A stretch of DNA of 64,000 nucleotides, from the NCBI GenBank assembly GCA_009692105.1, contig SHZS01000004.1, positions 1 through 64,000 on the forward strand, read 5' to 3'. The notes under the pieces are model-generated. The model searched no databases. It was not told where the DNA came from and saw nothing but the letters and a program-made list of their open reading frames with translations. Below, one piece after another: positions 6,829 through 13,551 of the stretch. This DNA comes from Gemmatimonadota bacterium (lineage in GTDB: Bacteria > Gemmatimonadota > Gemmatimonadetes > Longimicrobiales > Gaopeijiaceae). Position 1 is the first letter of the stretch; every line of letters starts with the position of its first letter. The position numbers and the translations under genes were made by a program.

Positions 6829-7479
6829 ATGTTTGCCGAAGAGAGCCGCAGTGCGGGAACGGCGGTGATGAGCTCTCCCGCCGGCAAGATCCGGGAGGAG
6901 CTTGGTGCGCTCTCGGACAGCGAGGTCGTTCAGCGATTCCTGGACGGCGAGCAGCGGGGCTTCGGGGAGCTCGTCGACCGTTACGACGCCCGGCTAGCCA
7001 ACTTCGTGTACCGGACCGTGGGCGACCGCGAGAGGGCCCAGGACCTTGTGCAGGAGACCTTCGTTAGGGTGTACCGCCACCTCAAGCGGTTCGACCAGAA
7101 CAAGAAGTTCTCGACCTGGATCTACACGATCGCGAGCAACCTAGCGAAGAACGAGCTCCGGAACCGCTCGCGGAACCCGCTCGTTCTCTTCCAGACACTC
7201 AAGAAGAATTGGGACGCGGACCATCGACCGCTCGAGTGGGAAGACGAGACCATGAAGCCGGACGATCTGTTTCGGAAGCGGCACCTGAAGGAGGTCGTCG
7301 GGCGCGCGGTTCAGGAGCTGCCCGAGCACCACCGGATCGTGTTCGTTCTGAGGGAGCTCGAAGGCCGCACGTATGAAGACATCGCGGAGATCACGCACAC
7401 GAATCTCGGGACCGTGAAGAGTCGGCTGAACCGCGCCCGGAACAACTTTGCGCGGATCGTGGCACCGATGATCGAATGA
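6829..7479 (+). CDS. ECF-type RNA polymerase sigma factor
   Basis: Directs RNA polymerase to a specific promoter set. The 216-residue protein has region 2 (VQRFLDGEQRGFGELVDRY, then DLVQETFVRVYRHLKRF and STWIYTIASNLAKNEL) and region 4 (LPEHHRIVFVLRELEGRTYEDIA, then GTVKSRLNRARN). It resembles RpoE-like ECF factors. ATG 6829 follows GGGAGG at good spacing; a second ATG 14 codons further in is possible. The gene is free-standing, with 242 bp upstream and a strong terminator downstream. A probable anti-sigma factor follows that terminator. Confidence 0.93.
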   Translation: MFAEESRSAGTAVMSSPAGKIREELGALSDSEVVQRFLDGEQRGFGELVDRYDARLANFVYRTVGDRERAQDLVQETFVRVYRHLKRFDQNKKFSTWIYTIASNLAKNELRNRSRNPLVLFQTLKKNWDADHRPLEWEDETMKPDDLFRKRHLKEVVGRAVQELPEHHRIVFVLRELEGRTYEDIAEITHTNLGTVKSRLNRARNNFARIVAPMIE

Positions 7480-7830
7480 CGATCGGCCGCACCGCGGATG
7501 GCGGTGGTTGCCATCGTCGCCCGTGCGTTCGGGACCGGTCGGGACCGACCCTGAACGGACCCTGAGTCCGACATCGAATCCCCCGGCGGGCTTGTCCCGC
7601 CGGGGGATTCTGTCTTGTGGAACCACTCTCGTCGATGCCCAGTACAACGCTGCATCGATCTTTCCGAAGGTTGGGCCCCGAGTGTCGATGACGGGTGGAG
7701 GCGGAACCCACGAACCCTCCGACACGTATGAGTCAGCGTTGGGCCCCGGTGAACCGGCTTGACGCCGACCCGATGCCATGCACGGCGACACCACGTGAGG
7801 GTGGAGTGCTTCATTGAAGAGTATCGTGCT
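7480..7830 (+). other. Non-coding interval between the sigma and anti-sigma-like genes
   Basis: This 351-bp interval carries one strong hairpin terminator near its middle. No reading frame in it looks protein-coding. The distal part, 7611-7830, should hold the promoter and leader of the anti-sigma-like gene, but I see no clear promoter consensus. Confidence 0.6.
7576..7616 (+). terminator. Strong hairpin terminator behind the ECF sigma gene
   Basis: The arms GAATCCCCCGGCGGG (7576-7590) and CCCGCCGGGGGATTC (7596-7610) form a perfect 15-bp stem around the loop CTTGT and are followed by TGTCTTG. The U-tract is weak, so it may act in both directions or partly as an mRNA 3' stabiliser. Confidence 0.8.
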
Positions 7831-8403
7831 ATGAAGTGCGCCGAGTTCCTCGCGAGCTTCTCGGACTTTCGCGACGCGGGCCCCTCCTTCGAGGGGCGCG
7901 TGGCGTTCGAGGAGCACACGGCGGACTGTCCTTCCTGTGCACGGTATGTCGCCGTGGTCCGGCAGGGCGTGGAGCTTCTTCGGGAGCTGCCTCCTGCCCC
8001 CCTCCGGGACGATTTCCACGAACGCCTTAGATATTCGATCTACCGCTTCGAAGAAGAGAGTCGCCCCGAGAGGAATGTCCTGGGAGCGGCCCCCGTCATG
8101 CTCCTTGTGGCGGCCGCGGCGATCTTCGCGGTATGGATCGGAGCCCCGCGGATGGTGGAGCCCGATCCCTCCGTCGAGCTCGCGCCCATCGTCGTCCGGT
8201 GGCCGCTCGAACCGGACCCGTACCCTTCTCCTTCTCCTTCCCGTTCTCTCTCCGTCGCCGACTCTCCGTCGCTCCGTCCCGAAGGGGCTTTGTGGTTGGA
8301 GAGCTCGGACCTGTGGGCCGAATCGAACGTGCTCCTATACGAGCACTCGCGGCTGTTCCAGCGCTATCAGGAGCCGGGGCTCGTGCGTACCGGGCTCCGC
8401 TGA
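7831..8403 (+). CDS. Putative zinc-finger anti-sigma factor, single-pass membrane protein
   Basis: A 190-residue protein with an N-terminal zinc-binding H-x3-C-x2-C motif (His29, Cys33, Cys36; in EEHTADCPSCARY), the hallmark of zinc-containing anti-sigma domains. A single hydrophobic segment lies at about 87-104. The extracytoplasmic part contains a Pro/Ser-rich stretch. This is the expected plan of a membrane anti-sigma that holds the ECF factor encoded just upstream. ATG 7831 is the first start that keeps the compact zinc domain; GTG 7801 or an in-frame ATG at 7759 would lengthen it. The partner assignment rests on gene order. A perfect 15-bp terminator hairpin separates it from the sigma gene, which is unusual. 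Confidence 0.72.
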   Translation: MKCAEFLASFSDFRDAGPSFEGRVAFEEHTADCPSCARYVAVVRQGVELLRELPPAPLRDDFHERLRYSIYRFEEESRPERNVLGAAPVMLLVAAAAIFAVWIGAPRMVEPDPSVELAPIVVRWPLEPDPYPSPSPSRSLSVADSPSLRPEGALWLESSDLWAESNVLLYEHSRLFQRYQEPGLVRTGLR

Positions 8404-8410
8404 TAGGGGA

Positions 8411-9415
8411 ATGGGTCGGGCGGAGCTCGATGCGGTTCTGAAGGACGGACGGGGCGGGGTCTTCTTCCTACACGGATCCGACGAGTACGGGAAGGAGCGC
8501 TTCGCCGGGGCCCTGCGCGACGCGTACCTGGACCCCAGCACGGGCGACTTCAACTTCGACCTGCTCCGGGGGTCGGAGGTGCGTGGTGAGGAGCTGGCCA
8601 CGGTCCTCGGGACCCCGCCGATGATGGCGCAGTGGCGAGTTGTGCTCCTGCGTGAGACGCAGGCATTGTCCTCCTCCCCGAAGGCGCGAGATCTCCTCCT
8701 GGAGACGACGAAGTCGCCACCGGAGGGGCTCGTCCTGATCCTCCTTTGCACCGTGCCCCAGCGATCCTCGGCTCGCTTCTACTCCGACCTCCGGCGAGGG
8801 GCCCGCTCGGTCGAGTTCCGGAACCCGGACCCGAACGACCTCCCGGGTTGGCTCATGGGATGGAGTCGGGAGTCGTTCGGCAGAGAGCTCGACGAGGATG
8901 CGGCCCGGGCGCTTGCCCAGGCTGTAGGAGCCGATCTGGCGATCCTCGCCAGCGAGCTGGAGAAGTTGAGCACGCTCGTGGGGGAAGGAGGGCGGATTAC
9001 CCGGGAGGCTGTAGAGGCGGTGGGGACGAGAATCCCGCGCCAGGACCGATGGGAGTGGTTCGATCTCGTTGGGGCGAAGCGGTTTTCGGACGCAACACGT
9101 GGGCTCCAGGTGCTTCTCGATCATGGGGAGTCTGGTGTGGGCCTCGTCACGGGGCTCGGCACCCATCTTCTCCGGCTAGGGCTTGTTCGCACGGGAGGTC
9201 CTCCGGCGCTCTCGTCCGCCCTCCCGGAGAAGCAGCGATTCCTGGTCCCCCGGCTGGCGGACCAGGCGCGCAATTGGACCGTGGTGGAGCTGCGGCGGGC
9301 GATCGACGGGCTGCTACGCGCTGACGAGCTCCTCAAGTCGAGCCGAATCCCGGCCGCTTTTCTACTCGAGCAGTGGCTCCTGGAACGGATGGTCATGCGG
9401 GAGGCGGTTGCATGA
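8411..9415 (+). CDS. holA: DNA polymerase III subunit delta
   Basis: The delta subunit opens the beta sliding clamp within the clamp-loader complex. The 334-residue protein starts with DAVLKDGRGGVFFLHGSDE, the usual delta N-terminus around a degenerate P-loop, and carries LASELEKLS and the C-terminal helical domain (WTVVELRRAIDGLLRAD). ATG 8411 lies 7 bp after the anti-sigma-like stop. The 3' end overlaps the next gene as ATGA. The family is poorly conserved in sequence, but length and order of elements fit. Confidence 0.85.
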   Translation: MGRAELDAVLKDGRGGVFFLHGSDEYGKERFAGALRDAYLDPSTGDFNFDLLRGSEVRGEELATVLGTPPMMAQWRVVLLRETQALSSSPKARDLLLETTKSPPEGLVLILLCTVPQRSSARFYSDLRRGARSVEFRNPDPNDLPGWLMGWSRESFGRELDEDAARALAQAVGADLAILASELEKLSTLVGEGGRITREAVEAVGTRIPRQDRWEWFDLVGAKRFSDATRGLQVLLDHGESGVGLVTGLGTHLLRLGLVRTGGPPALSSALPEKQRFLVPRLADQARNWTVVELRRAIDGLLRADELLKSSRIPAAFLLEQWLLERMVMREAVA

Positions 9416-10287
9416 TGCCCGATCGGTGCCTCCGCGTTCTCTCCGTTCTCGGCTTACCCGTCATCCTCCTCGCGATGTGCGCCTCGCCGGGAGGCGCCGC
9501 CGCACAGGGCCAGGACCTGCTCGCGGTGGAGCGGCTGGCAGACGATGGCCGCTTCGTGCAAGCGCGAGCCGCTCTCACCGATTGGCTGGACGGGGAATGG
9601 AGCGGGGCGACCCGTGCGGATCGTCAGCTGGGAGTCTGGCTCCGGGCTCTCCTCTCCCTCGATCCCGACAGGGCCGAGCTCGACTATCGACGGCTGGTCG
9701 TGGAGTACCCGGGGGGAGCGTATTCCGACCAGGCCCTGATCCGGCTTGCCCAGGGGTCTCTGGCGCGCAGCGACGTCTCGGCGGCCCAACAGTATCTCAC
9801 GATATTCCTCCGGGACTATCCCGAGAGCCCGCTTCGGGTGGAGGCACGCTCGTTGATGTCACGGCTGGAGGAAGGGCCCGTCCCGGACGCGATCGCGGTC
9901 TTGATTCCCACCTTAGGCCCGGGCGTTTCGTCGAGTCCTCCCTCGCTCCCCACGGATACTCCGCCGCCCGCCCCCCCTCCCTCCAGTCGGCCGACCATCG
10001 AGGTTTCCGGTGCCGCCGGACTCGACGAGCGTTCCGGAACGGATCCCTTCACCCTACAATTGGGTGCCTTCTTCACCGAGGGTCGGGCGCTCTCGCTCAC
10101 CCTCGACGCCCGGGTGGCAGGGCTCGAGCCACGGCTCGTGCGGGTGCAGGGAAGCGAGTTGCTCCGGGTCCGCCTGGGTCGGTTCGCGACACGGGAGGAG
10201 GCGGAGGCCAGGGCGGAGGCGCTCCGGGAGTTGGGCTTTCAAGCCGTCATATCGTCGGACCGTGCACTGGAGGAAGAGATTCCGTGA
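9412..10287 (+). CDS. Exported TPR-like protein with C-terminal SPOR domain
   Basis: A 291-residue protein with an N-terminal signal peptide (about residues 1-33, ending near GGAAAQ). TPR-like helices follow (about 35-145; LDYRRLVVEYPGGAYSDQALIRLA is split between two repeats), as in outer-membrane assembly or tetratricopeptide proteins. A Pro/Ser linker comes next, then a SPOR domain at about 211-285 (FTLQLGAFFTEGRA and LRVRLGRFATREEAEA). SPOR domains bind denuded septal peptidoglycan, so the protein probably acts in the periplasm at division sites. The start ATG 9412 overlaps the holA stop, and its stop overlaps the receiver-domain gene by GTGA, so all three are coupled. Confidence 0.82.
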   Translation: MMPDRCLRVLSVLGLPVILLAMCASPGGAAAQGQDLLAVERLADDGRFVQARAALTDWLDGEWSGATRADRQLGVWLRALLSLDPDRAELDYRRLVVEYPGGAYSDQALIRLAQGSLARSDVSAAQQYLTIFLRDYPESPLRVEARSLMSRLEEGPVPDAIAVLIPTLGPGVSSSPPSLPTDTPPPAPPPSSRPTIEVSGAAGLDERSGTDPFTLQLGAFFTEGRALSLTLDARVAGLEPRLVRVQGSELLRVRLGRFATREEAEARAEALRELGFQAVISSDRALEEEIP

Positions 10288-10850
10288 AGGCGGGCTCCAA
10301 GAGCGGAAGGACGTGGAAGGTCCTCCTCGCGGATGACAACGACGATCACGCGCTCCTGATCCAGATGGCGCTGGAGCGGGTGACGGATGGCGAAGTTGTT
10401 CTCCGGAGAGCCCGAGACGGGGACGAGGCGGTCCGGATGGTTGCCGAGGAGCTGCCCGAGCTCATCCTCCTGGACCTGCACATGCCCGGGCGCTCCGGCC
10501 ACGAGGTGCTTCAGCATCTGAATGGCAGCCAGGAGTACCGCCGGATTCCGGTTGCCGTGCGCACCTCCTCCGACCGGGACGAGGATGTAGCCGAGAGCTA
10601 CGGCCTGGGTGGGAACCATTTCATCACCAAGCCGGGCGATCCAGCGGAGCTGGTCCAGCGGCTACGGCCGCTCTTCACGAACCTTCGCGAGTTGCAGGGG
10701 ATCAGCCGCGGTGCCCGTGGGATGGCCACGACGGGGAAGGCCGCCGAGGGCCCCGCGAGCTACGTCCTGAAGAAGGCCATTCCAGCCATCGGGTTCATCG
10801 CAGTCCTCGCGATTCTCCTCTTTTGGGCTTGGGTTAGCGGCGTCTTCTGA
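10284..10850 (+). CDS. Receiver-domain protein with a C-terminal membrane anchor
   Basis: A 188-residue protein. Residues about 12-135 form a response-regulator receiver domain with all key residues: acidic pair Asp17/Asp18, phospho-acceptor Asp64 (LLDLHMPG), Thr94 and Lys116 (FITKPGD). The fold style resembles Rcp1/CheY-like single receivers. Instead of an output domain it has a short linker and one hydrophobic segment at about 164-188 (IPAIGFIAVLAILLFWAW) that ends at the C-terminus, so it should be tail-anchored with the receiver in the cytoplasm. GTG 10284 overlaps the stop of the SPOR gene. No histidine kinase is adjacent. The function is unknown; membrane recruitment or phosphate buffering are possibilities. 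Confidence 0.8.
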   Translation: MKAGSKSGRTWKVLLADDNDDHALLIQMALERVTDGEVVLRRARDGDEAVRMVAEELPELILLDLHMPGRSGHEVLQHLNGSQEYRRIPVAVRTSSDRDEDVAESYGLGGNHFITKPGDPAELVQRLRPLFTNLRELQGISRGARGMATTGKAAEGPASYVLKKAIPAIGFIAVLAILLFWAWVSGVF

Positions 10851-10869: not shown

Positions 10870-13551
10870 ATGGTTCCGGGTTCAGCTGTGAACGAGGAGA
10901 CTCCCCTGATGAGACAGTGGCGGGAGGCCAAGGCCCGCCACCCCGATTCCCTCCTTTTCTTCCGGGTCGGCGACTTCTTCGAGCTCTTCTACGAGGACGC
11001 TCAGGAGGGCTCACGCCTGCTCGGGCTGACGCTCACGTCGCGGAATAATGGGGCCGCCGCGGAGGTGCCCATGGCGGGTGTTCCTGCCAGGGCTCTCGAG
11101 GAGTATCTCGGCCGGGTGATCCGGTTGGGGAGGCGGGCGGCGATCTGCGACCAGGTAGAGGACCCCTCGGAGTCGCAGGGAATCGTGCGGCGCGAGGTGG
11201 TAGAGACCGTCACCCCAGGAACGGTTCTCTCCGACGGTCTGCTCCAGTCCAAGAGAAACAACTTCCTCGTCGCCCTGGCTCCACCCCGGAGCGGAAGGGT
11301 GGCGCTCGCGGCGGCGGACCTCTCGACCGGTGAGTTCCAGGTACGGGAAATGGAGCTGGAGTTCCTCTCGTCCGAGCTGGGGCGCCTCGCCCCGTCGGAG
11401 CTCCTCCTCCCACGGTCGTTCGAGGACGACCCCATCCCTGGGCTGGAGGGGGACGGGCTCTTCGGTCCGTCAGGCCGGACCTTTCGGGACGAATGGGTCT
11501 TCGACGAGTCCCTGGGCGGCGAGGAGATCAGGAGTCGGTACGGGGTCCGGTCCCTCGAGGCGCTGGGCTTCGAGTCCGCCGACGGGCTCCTGGTCCAGGC
11601 GGCCGGAGCGCTCTCCGCGTACGTGAAGGAGATCCGCCCCACGGGAGCCCCTCCGCTCCGGCCTCCCCGCATCCTCCGTCCGGGCACCGAGATGGCGCTC
11701 GACGAGATGACGCGCAGAAACCTGGAGCTCACGGAGCCCCTCCGCACGGGCGACGAGAGCTCCACCCTGGTTTCCGTCCTGGACGACACGGTGACCGCCA
11801 TGGGAGGCCGGCTCCTGCGCCAGTGGATCATCCGTCCGCTCGTCGTTGTCGAGGAGATCCGGCGGCGGCAGGAGGCCGTGAAGGAGCTAGTCGACGACAG
11901 GGAGCTCCGCGGTTGCCTTCGCTCGCATCTGGAGCGCATGCACGATCTGGAGCGTCTCGCGGGGAAGGTGGGGGCGAATCGGGTCACCCCGAGAGAGCTC
12001 CTCTCGATCGCGGCGTCCCTCGACCGGATCCCCCCGATCCGGGAGGTGGCGGCGAAGGTTGAGTCACCGCTCCTTCGGGAGGTGTCGGTGGAGCTCGATA
12101 CGCTCGAGGACCTTGCACGGCGGATCGAAGCCGGGATCTCACCCGACGCTCCGTCAACCCTCCAGGAGGGCGGGGTAATCCGCGCCGGGTTCTCGGAACC
12201 GCTGGACGAGCTCCGGGAGGTGAGGGATGGCGCCCGAGACTTCATCGCCTCGCTCCAGGTTCGAGAGCGGGCGAGGACTGGGATCCAGTCTCTCAAGGTC
12301 GGTTTCAACCGCGTCTTCGGATACTACTTGGAGGTGACGAGGGCGAACGCGGTGCGGGTGCCGGACGACTACGTGCGGAAACAGACCCTCGCGAACGCCG
12401 AGCGCTACTTCACCCCCGAGCTCAAGGAGTGGGAGGAGAAGGTTTCGGGTGCCGAGGAGAAGATCCTGGCGCTCGAGTCAGAGCTCTTCCAGCGGATCCG
12501 AGGCGAGGTTGCCGCCCGGGTCGGGCGCCTCCAGGAGCTCGGCTGTCGCGTTGCCGTGCTCGATCTTCTTGCGTGTCTGGCTCAGGTGGCCGTGCGCCGG
12601 AGCTATTCGTGCCCTGTGCTGCACTCGGGCTTCGACGTCGAGATCCGCGGTGGGCGCCACCCCGTGGTCGAGACGATGATGCCACGGGCAGAGTTCGTCC
12701 CGAACGACCTCCTGCTTGGCGAGGGCGGGCGGATCGTGATCCTCACGGGCCCCAACATGGCCGGGAAGAGCACGATCCTCCGGCAGGTGGGGCTGATCCA
12801 GCTGCTCGCGCAGATGGGCTCTTTCGTCCCTGCGGAATCGGCCCGGATCCCAATCTGTGACCGCATCTTCACGCGAGTCGGAGCGTCGGACAACCTCGCC
12901 CGTGGGCAGTCCACCTTCATGGTCGAGATGAACGAGACGGCGGCGATTCTTCACCAGGCGACCCCGCGGAGCCTCGTGCTCCTAGATGAGATCGGCCGCG
13001 GAACCTCGACCTACGACGGTGTGTCCATCGCGTGGGCGGTGACGGAACACCTGCACGAAGTGGTCGGAGCCAAGACGGTCTTCGCCACCCATTACCACGA
13101 GTTGACCCAGCTCGCGGATCTTCTCACGGCGGTCCGGAATATGAACGTCGCAGTCAGGGAGACGGGGGACCGGATCGTCTTTCTCCGCCGACTGGAGGAA
13201 GGCGGAGCAGATCGCTCGTATGGAATCCACGTCGCTCGTCTCGCAGGTCTCCCCGACCCGATCATCGTCCGGGCGAGAGAGTTGCTTGCCGAGCTGGAGG
13301 GGAGCCACTCGGGGGGAGGGGAAGGGCTGGGGCGGCGGCGGGCACATCGCCCGGGCTCCACTCCTGGCTTGGATCAACTTTCCCTCTTCGTCGCCGAGGA
13401 TCCGGTGATCACCCGACTCAGGAAGCTCGAACCGGAGAAGATGACGCCTCTGGACGCCATGAATATGCTTGCCGATCTGCGGAAGGAGCTCGACCGTCGA
13501 GGTCGGGGTGGGGACTCCGCCGCCGGTGAGGAGGGAGGCTCCTCGAGATGA
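10870..13551 (+). CDS. mutS: DNA mismatch repair protein MutS
   Basis: Recognises mismatches and, as an ATPase clamp, starts repair. The 893-residue length is typical. The mismatch-wedging Phe-x-Glu motif is at residues 36-38 (VGDFFELFY). The P-loop GPNMAGKST is at about 627-635, followed by the Walker B/signature region LVLLDEIGRGTSTYDG and ATHYHEL. The C-terminal linker is Gly/Arg-rich before the dimerisation helix (DQLSLF, later LRKLEPEKMTPLDAMN). The start is uncertain between ATG 10870 and GTG 10888; neither has a clear ribosome site. MutL is not in the window. The stop overlaps the next gene as ATGA. Confidence 0.96.
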   Translation: MVPGSAVNEETPLMRQWREAKARHPDSLLFFRVGDFFELFYEDAQEGSRLLGLTLTSRNNGAAAEVPMAGVPARALEEYLGRVIRLGRRAAICDQVEDPSESQGIVRREVVETVTPGTVLSDGLLQSKRNNFLVALAPPRSGRVALAAADLSTGEFQVREMELEFLSSELGRLAPSELLLPRSFEDDPIPGLEGDGLFGPSGRTFRDEWVFDESLGGEEIRSRYGVRSLEALGFESADGLLVQAAGALSAYVKEIRPTGAPPLRPPRILRPGTEMALDEMTRRNLELTEPLRTGDESSTLVSVLDDTVTAMGGRLLRQWIIRPLVVVEEIRRRQEAVKELVDDRELRGCLRSHLERMHDLERLAGKVGANRVTPRELLSIAASLDRIPPIREVAAKVESPLLREVSVELDTLEDLARRIEAGISPDAPSTLQEGGVIRAGFSEPLDELREVRDGARDFIASLQVRERARTGIQSLKVGFNRVFGYYLEVTRANAVRVPDDYVRKQTLANAERYFTPELKEWEEKVSGAEEKILALESELFQRIRGEVAARVGRLQELGCRVAVLDLLACLAQVAVRRSYSCPVLHSGFDVEIRGGRHPVVETMMPRAEFVPNDLLLGEGGRIVILTGPNMAGKSTILRQVGLIQLLAQMGSFVPAESARIPICDRIFTRVGASDNLARGQSTFMVEMNETAAILHQATPRSLVLLDEIGRGTSTYDGVSIAWAVTEHLHEVVGAKTVFATHYHELTQLADLLTAVRNMNVAVRETGDRIVFLRRLEEGGADRSYGIHVARLAGLPDPIIVRARELLAELEGSHSGGGEGLGRRRAHRPGSTPGLDQLSLFVAEDPVITRLRKLEPEKMTPLDAMNMLADLRKELDRRGRGGDSAAGEEGGSSR

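Follow-up and report, generated by a model that had tools for sequence, protein, structure and literature searches.

The receivers of two-component systems usually work through an output that binds DNA or has enzymatic activity, or they diffuse in the manner of CheY. Among the regulators that consist of a receiver domain, the Rcp1/bacteriophytochrome proteins are soluble and have phytochrome kinases as partners, and their solved relatives pair through the end of the domain. In Myxococcus xanthus the single-domain receiver EpsW activates a membrane glycosyl transferase, EpsZ, post-translationally (PMC12802240). SPOR domains of other proteins are known to bind denuded septal glycans (PMC6895207). 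The window, by which we mean the whole 64,000-nucleotide stretch of Gemmatimonadota DNA analysed here, encodes a receiver with a membrane tail directly behind a SPOR gene, in the following arrangement.

8411 to 9415, plus strand: holA (DNA polymerase III delta), with a 4-nt overlap with the SPOR gene; assigned from synteny and a weak DNA_pol3_delta_C match below cut-off (Pfam).
9412 to 10287, plus strand: exported TPR-SPOR protein, 291 aa, with a signal peptide, CpoB/BamD-like TPR helices (residues ~28-163), a disordered proline-rich linker and a SPOR domain (~211-280).
10284 to 10287, plus strand: 4-nt GTGA overlap of the SPOR stop and the receiver GTG start, a translational coupling.
10284 to 10850, plus strand: tail-anchored receiver protein, 188 aa, with a REC domain (residues 13-128), a long alpha-5, a linker (~142-161) and a C-terminal transmembrane (TM) helix (~165-187).
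10776 to 10847, plus strand: stretch coding for residues 165-188 (the C-terminal TM helix plus about one final residue), placed by hydrophobicity and the AlphaFold model.
10870 to 13551, plus strand: mutS, the downstream neighbour in the window, given as context.

The best Foldseek matches of the receiver include the bacteriophytochrome/Rcp1 regulators 6xvu, 1i3c, 1k68 and 5brj (28-35% identity). Similar to these regulators, it has the receiver fold, an extended alpha-5 and a complete phosphorylation site without an output domain. Unlike them, it carries a predicted C-terminal TM anchor and does not conform to the soluble, receiver-only type, and neither a phytochrome nor any other kinase is encoded next to it. 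EpsW is likewise a single-domain receiver and acts post-translationally on a membrane protein; however, it has no anchor (the NCBIfam model is 131 residues long), whereas the window receiver has a built-in anchor and a SPOR neighbour.

Response_reg (PF00072, Pfam) covers residues 13-128 of the receiver with an E value of 5e-20 and 72.1 bits, exceeding the curated cut-off of 30.2 across the full-length domain (profile positions 1-111 of 111). D18, D64, F113 and K116 are invariant in the pocket across 22 homologues, with D/E at position 17 and T/S at position 94. The acid pocket, phospho-Asp, Thr/Ser and Lys are thus conserved, in agreement with the sequence-only reading, which had described a receiver with all phosphorylation residues kept. 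Because these residues are invariant or conservatively replaced, the receiver looks, as judged from the alignment, like a working switch rather than a pseudo-receiver. The same reading had assigned the protein one TM helix, at the C-terminus, and no output domain; this description holds. The best 19-residue hydrophobic segment spans residues 169-187 and ends one residue before the C-terminus. AlphaFold, with 22 homologues as input, returned a standard REC fold with alpha-5 at residues 120-146, a low-confidence linker at 142-161 and a confident helix at 157-185. Gene calling by codon usage returned the identical open reading frame.

A comparable C-terminal helix is present in every receiver homologue found (19 genomes, ~24 genes, mostly 42-61% identical). 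The homologues at 42-61% identity align through the C-terminal end of the query, and their helices lie 0-7 residues from each C-terminus with no second TM segment predicted, which makes the protein a tail-anchored one by prediction and leaves no room for a periplasmic output domain. The net charge N-terminal to the helix exceeds the charge after it in 17 of 23 homologues, and this more positive flank favours a receiver domain that faces the cytoplasm. The helix does not stem from a frame error, as homologues at ~50% identity all carry it. We compared 208 distinct complete receiver ORFs, which were all those in the loci retrieved up to that comparison, and such a tail occurred only in the family of the window receiver. 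No C-terminal TM helix was present in the ~185 others (from the same genomes and further contig matches), which speaks against receiver-TM being a common plan. The plan was likewise not found among full-length plasmid matches, and an Azospirillum match was rejected as a receiver-TM protein since it is a longer multi-domain regulator. Nothing matching a membrane- or tail-anchored response regulator, or a combination of SPOR and receiver, was found in the open-access literature searched, of which coverage is incomplete; to that extent, the earlier description of the arrangement as undescribed fits. We conclude that the receiver is a real and conserved variant of the single-domain response regulators, restricted to one taxonomic family.

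Most homologues have in common an IRRGSGxxxATAVSA motif in the low-confidence linker (around residues 141-162, window 10704-10769), and a diverged form (RG.R..AT) is common to the window copy and the G001 genome. This motif could be a modification or binding site.

In the partner protein, SPOR (PF05036, Pfam) covers residues 211-280 with an E value of 2e-10 and 41.1 bits, above the curated score of 21. The AlphaFold model (pLDDT 82.8) consists of helical repeats and a SPOR fold (model residues 213-289), and an alignment of 27 orthologues retains the signal peptide, the TPR-like region, a variable proline-rich linker and SPOR. Profile matches among PDB structures are CwlC, the cell division coordinator CpoB, FtsN, DedD and BamD. 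CpoB-like TPR and a SPOR domain of the septal-glycan-binding kind are thus features in common with CpoB (YbgF), FtsN, DedD and CwlC; unlike these, the window partner is an exported protein that carries TPR and SPOR together, and its gene overlaps that of a receiver. By analogy with other SPOR domains, binding to denuded septal glycans is predicted for the protein. As no TM segment is predicted beyond the signal peptide, it should be periplasmic. If the predicted topologies are right, direct contact between the SPOR protein and the cytoplasmic receiver is excluded.

The SPOR gene lies directly upstream of the receiver in 18 of 18 readable loci; the nineteenth receiver genome, G083, stands outside this count because both genes are at contig ends. 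The order is conserved across ~15 genera, and at least 11 of 16 loci retain a 4-nt overlap of the two genes, consistent with the coupling to an exported TPR-SPOR gene that had been proposed from the window. Upstream of SPOR, holA is found in all loci and is context, outside the mechanism considered below. The genes downstream of the receiver vary and include mutS, DUF302, CopA (copper-type P-ATPase), a cyclase, a succinylglutamate-desuccinylase-like gene and a second receiver gene. Both the receiver-TM plan and the holA-SPOR-receiver order expected in relatives were therefore recovered, and the outcomes that had been named beforehand as speaking against the sequence-only reading did not appear: the helix is present in all homologues, the gene neighbourhood is conserved and the reading frame is sound.

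The two genes differ in distribution. The SPOR gene is present in 76 of 116 genomes of the window's taxonomic family and the receiver in 19, all within those 76; the chance of this is ~1e-4 if genomes are independent, and since they are related it is supportive only. In many receiver-less genomes holA and SPOR occupy the same setting, and among those that are complete and were read, SPOR is followed directly by mutS or other genes. Because the whole region is syntenic in the family, the SPOR-receiver adjacency is partly shared ancestry. Just upstream of holA-SPOR-receiver, at window positions 6829-8403, there is an ECF sigma factor with a zinc-finger anti-sigma factor that has one TM segment, a pair that keeps its position in most relatives whether the receiver is present or absent.

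Sequence matching found the receiver in 18 of the 116 family genomes, and a profile search of the order added G074. The same search returned G093, which was rejected as a further member because its receiver has no tail and lies directly behind a kinase gene. Across the class the receiver occurs in 19 of 394 genomes, all within the window's family, and the next matches among 298 phylum genomes drop to E ~1e-30, most of them spanning the receiver domain only. Mapped on a holA tree of 37 genomes, receiver presence needs at least eight changes. The window organism's holA groups with those of G046 and G071, and the receiver was found in neither; its receiver (L041:10284-10850) groups with both G001 copies (L031, L032), in conflict with the holA tree. 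This conflict, together with the patchy presence, indicates that gain, loss or relocation of the receiver gene has been frequent. Horizontal transfer to the same site would fit the conflict, as would old duplicates with many losses. Three copies look damaged, by a frameshift in G057 (L050), a stop near the start in G065 (L046) and deletion of the phospho-Asp block in G074 (L102:1498-1965). These may reflect ongoing loss, and draft-assembly errors are possible. Extra receiver copies occur at unrelated loci in three genomes.

Two genomes, G051 and G053, have a second receiver copy immediately after the first (L249:5983-7239; L250:748-2019). These tandem copies consist of an N-terminal domain of ~200 residues followed by the receiver and the tail helix. 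The N-terminal domain is related to the catalytic domain of the BY-kinases Wzc, CapAB and BceF (profile E ~1e-8 to BceF and Wzc). Unlike BY-kinases, however, it lacks Walker A (the GKS/T loop) across 18 aligned sequences and so does not qualify as one, and it is fused to REC-TM, not to a polysaccharide co-polymerase. This pseudo-BY-kinase domain occurs once per genome in 82 of 112 genomes of the family. On the four contigs read, it heads a TM protein encoded directly upstream of smc (L245:6384-7493 in the window organism, L246:290-2044, L247:2970-4643 and L248:1179-3260). Its union with a TM segment, and in several genomes with SPOR as well, is a further difference from BY-kinases. The smc-linked protein has a C-terminal SPOR domain in G053, G051 and, weakly, G019; that of the window organism has the TM segment without SPOR. 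In a third genome, G001, a further receiver-TM copy forms an in-frame fusion with HEAT repeats. Fusions to the pseudo-BY-kinase domain in two genomes and to HEAT repeats in a third suggest, by guilt of association, that REC-TM behaves as a portable module, one of whose partners also partners SPOR.

The sequence-only reading had also pointed to a partner kinase, and none emerged near the receiver: in the loci read its neighbours are holA, SPOR and the variable downstream genes. The window organism's genome encodes six HisKA kinases, five with an adjacent regulator and one orphan (G000:C13). Orthologues of the orphan follow the host clade and are found mostly in receiver-less relatives, without co-occurrence with the receiver (Fisher p 0.42), which rules it out as a dedicated partner; it could still serve the receiver in the window organism. 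The orphan (L282:3643-5490) is a membrane histidine kinase with PAS and may be split by a frameshift from an upstream 136-codon membrane ORF, the frames of its relatives being ~630 codons.

Architecture, conservation, overlap and module fusions are read directly from the genomes, and from them we infer a topology, a phosphorylation step, a partner and a role. A histidine kinase encoded elsewhere would phosphorylate D64, and phosphorylation would alter receiver pairing or the alpha4-beta5-alpha5 face at the membrane surface. The switched receiver would then recruit or release a cytoplasmic or integral-membrane partner. Its production would be tied by the overlapping start to that of the CpoB-like SPOR protein. 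This coupling and the shared pseudo-BY-kinase fusion domain make modulation of an envelope or septum complex the likeliest role. We give an even chance to a reading in which the receiver is held at the inner membrane by its tail and acts there as a recruitment module under the control of phosphorylation, probably for work at the septum or envelope. Against this reading, most SPOR-bearing genomes lack the receiver, its presence is patchy, copies in three genomes look damaged, no partner kinase emerged and the adjacency to SPOR is partly shared ancestry. The division or envelope signalling unit originally proposed therefore stands in part: the gene order is conserved and the SPOR-receiver pair is plausible as a functional unit, whereas the predicted compartments (periplasmic SPOR, cytoplasmic receiver) would prevent contact through the receiver, and the two genes differ in distribution.

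Several of these observations would also suit a receiver of ordinary function, a phosphate sink or adaptor that serves a membrane kinase. In that case the anchor would only raise its concentration close to membrane-bound histidine kinases, and its position after the SPOR gene would be inherited synteny, functionally unconnected with the envelope. Such a protein needs no output domain, and the patchy distribution, the frequency of SPOR without receiver, the synteny of the whole region and the extra copies at unrelated loci are all in its favour. It leaves unexplained that the start-stop overlap and the upstream SPOR gene are kept while the downstream genes change, and that the receiver is fused to a domain which elsewhere heads an smc-linked TM protein, SPOR-tailed in several genomes; a dedicated kinase was also not found. 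We regard this explanation as possible, if somewhat doubtful.

The fused BY-kinase-related domain could alternatively mark Wzc-type machinery, with the receiver controlling envelope polysaccharide synthesis at the membrane, as EpsW does on EpsZ, rather than division. The precedent of EpsW and its post-translational activation of a membrane glycosyl transferase (PMC12802240) is consistent with this, as are a G003 copy that adjoins a Wzc-like BY-kinase and an NCBIfam EpsW match to one copy, far below cut-off. However, the main locus has no polysaccharide genes, and the BY-kinase-like domain lacks Walker A and is found next to smc in a protein that has a TM segment and, in several genomes, SPOR; control of polysaccharide synthesis is unlikely. 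It is very unlikely that the gene is a dispensable remnant, decaying and without present function in a reduced (1.6 Mb) genome. Decay would produce copies such as those of G057, G065 and G074, which look frameshifted or truncated, and sister genomes without receiver, but in the window organism frame, pocket, helix and overlap are intact, and a pocket invariant in 22 homologues at ~50% identity points to long purifying selection.

A more novel reading, which we put forward tentatively, is a new class of signalling part. A portable REC-TM may place a phosphorylation switch on the inner membrane, be combined with different adaptors (none, a degenerate BY-kinase or HEAT repeats) and work with SPOR proteins for two-component control of the division or envelope machinery without transcription. 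A conserved receiver to which only a membrane tail is added, coupled to a predicted septal peptidoglycan binder, would mean that phosphorylation signals can act directly on the inner membrane close to where the cell divides, through a compact, testable module in a bacterial group with little-studied division control.
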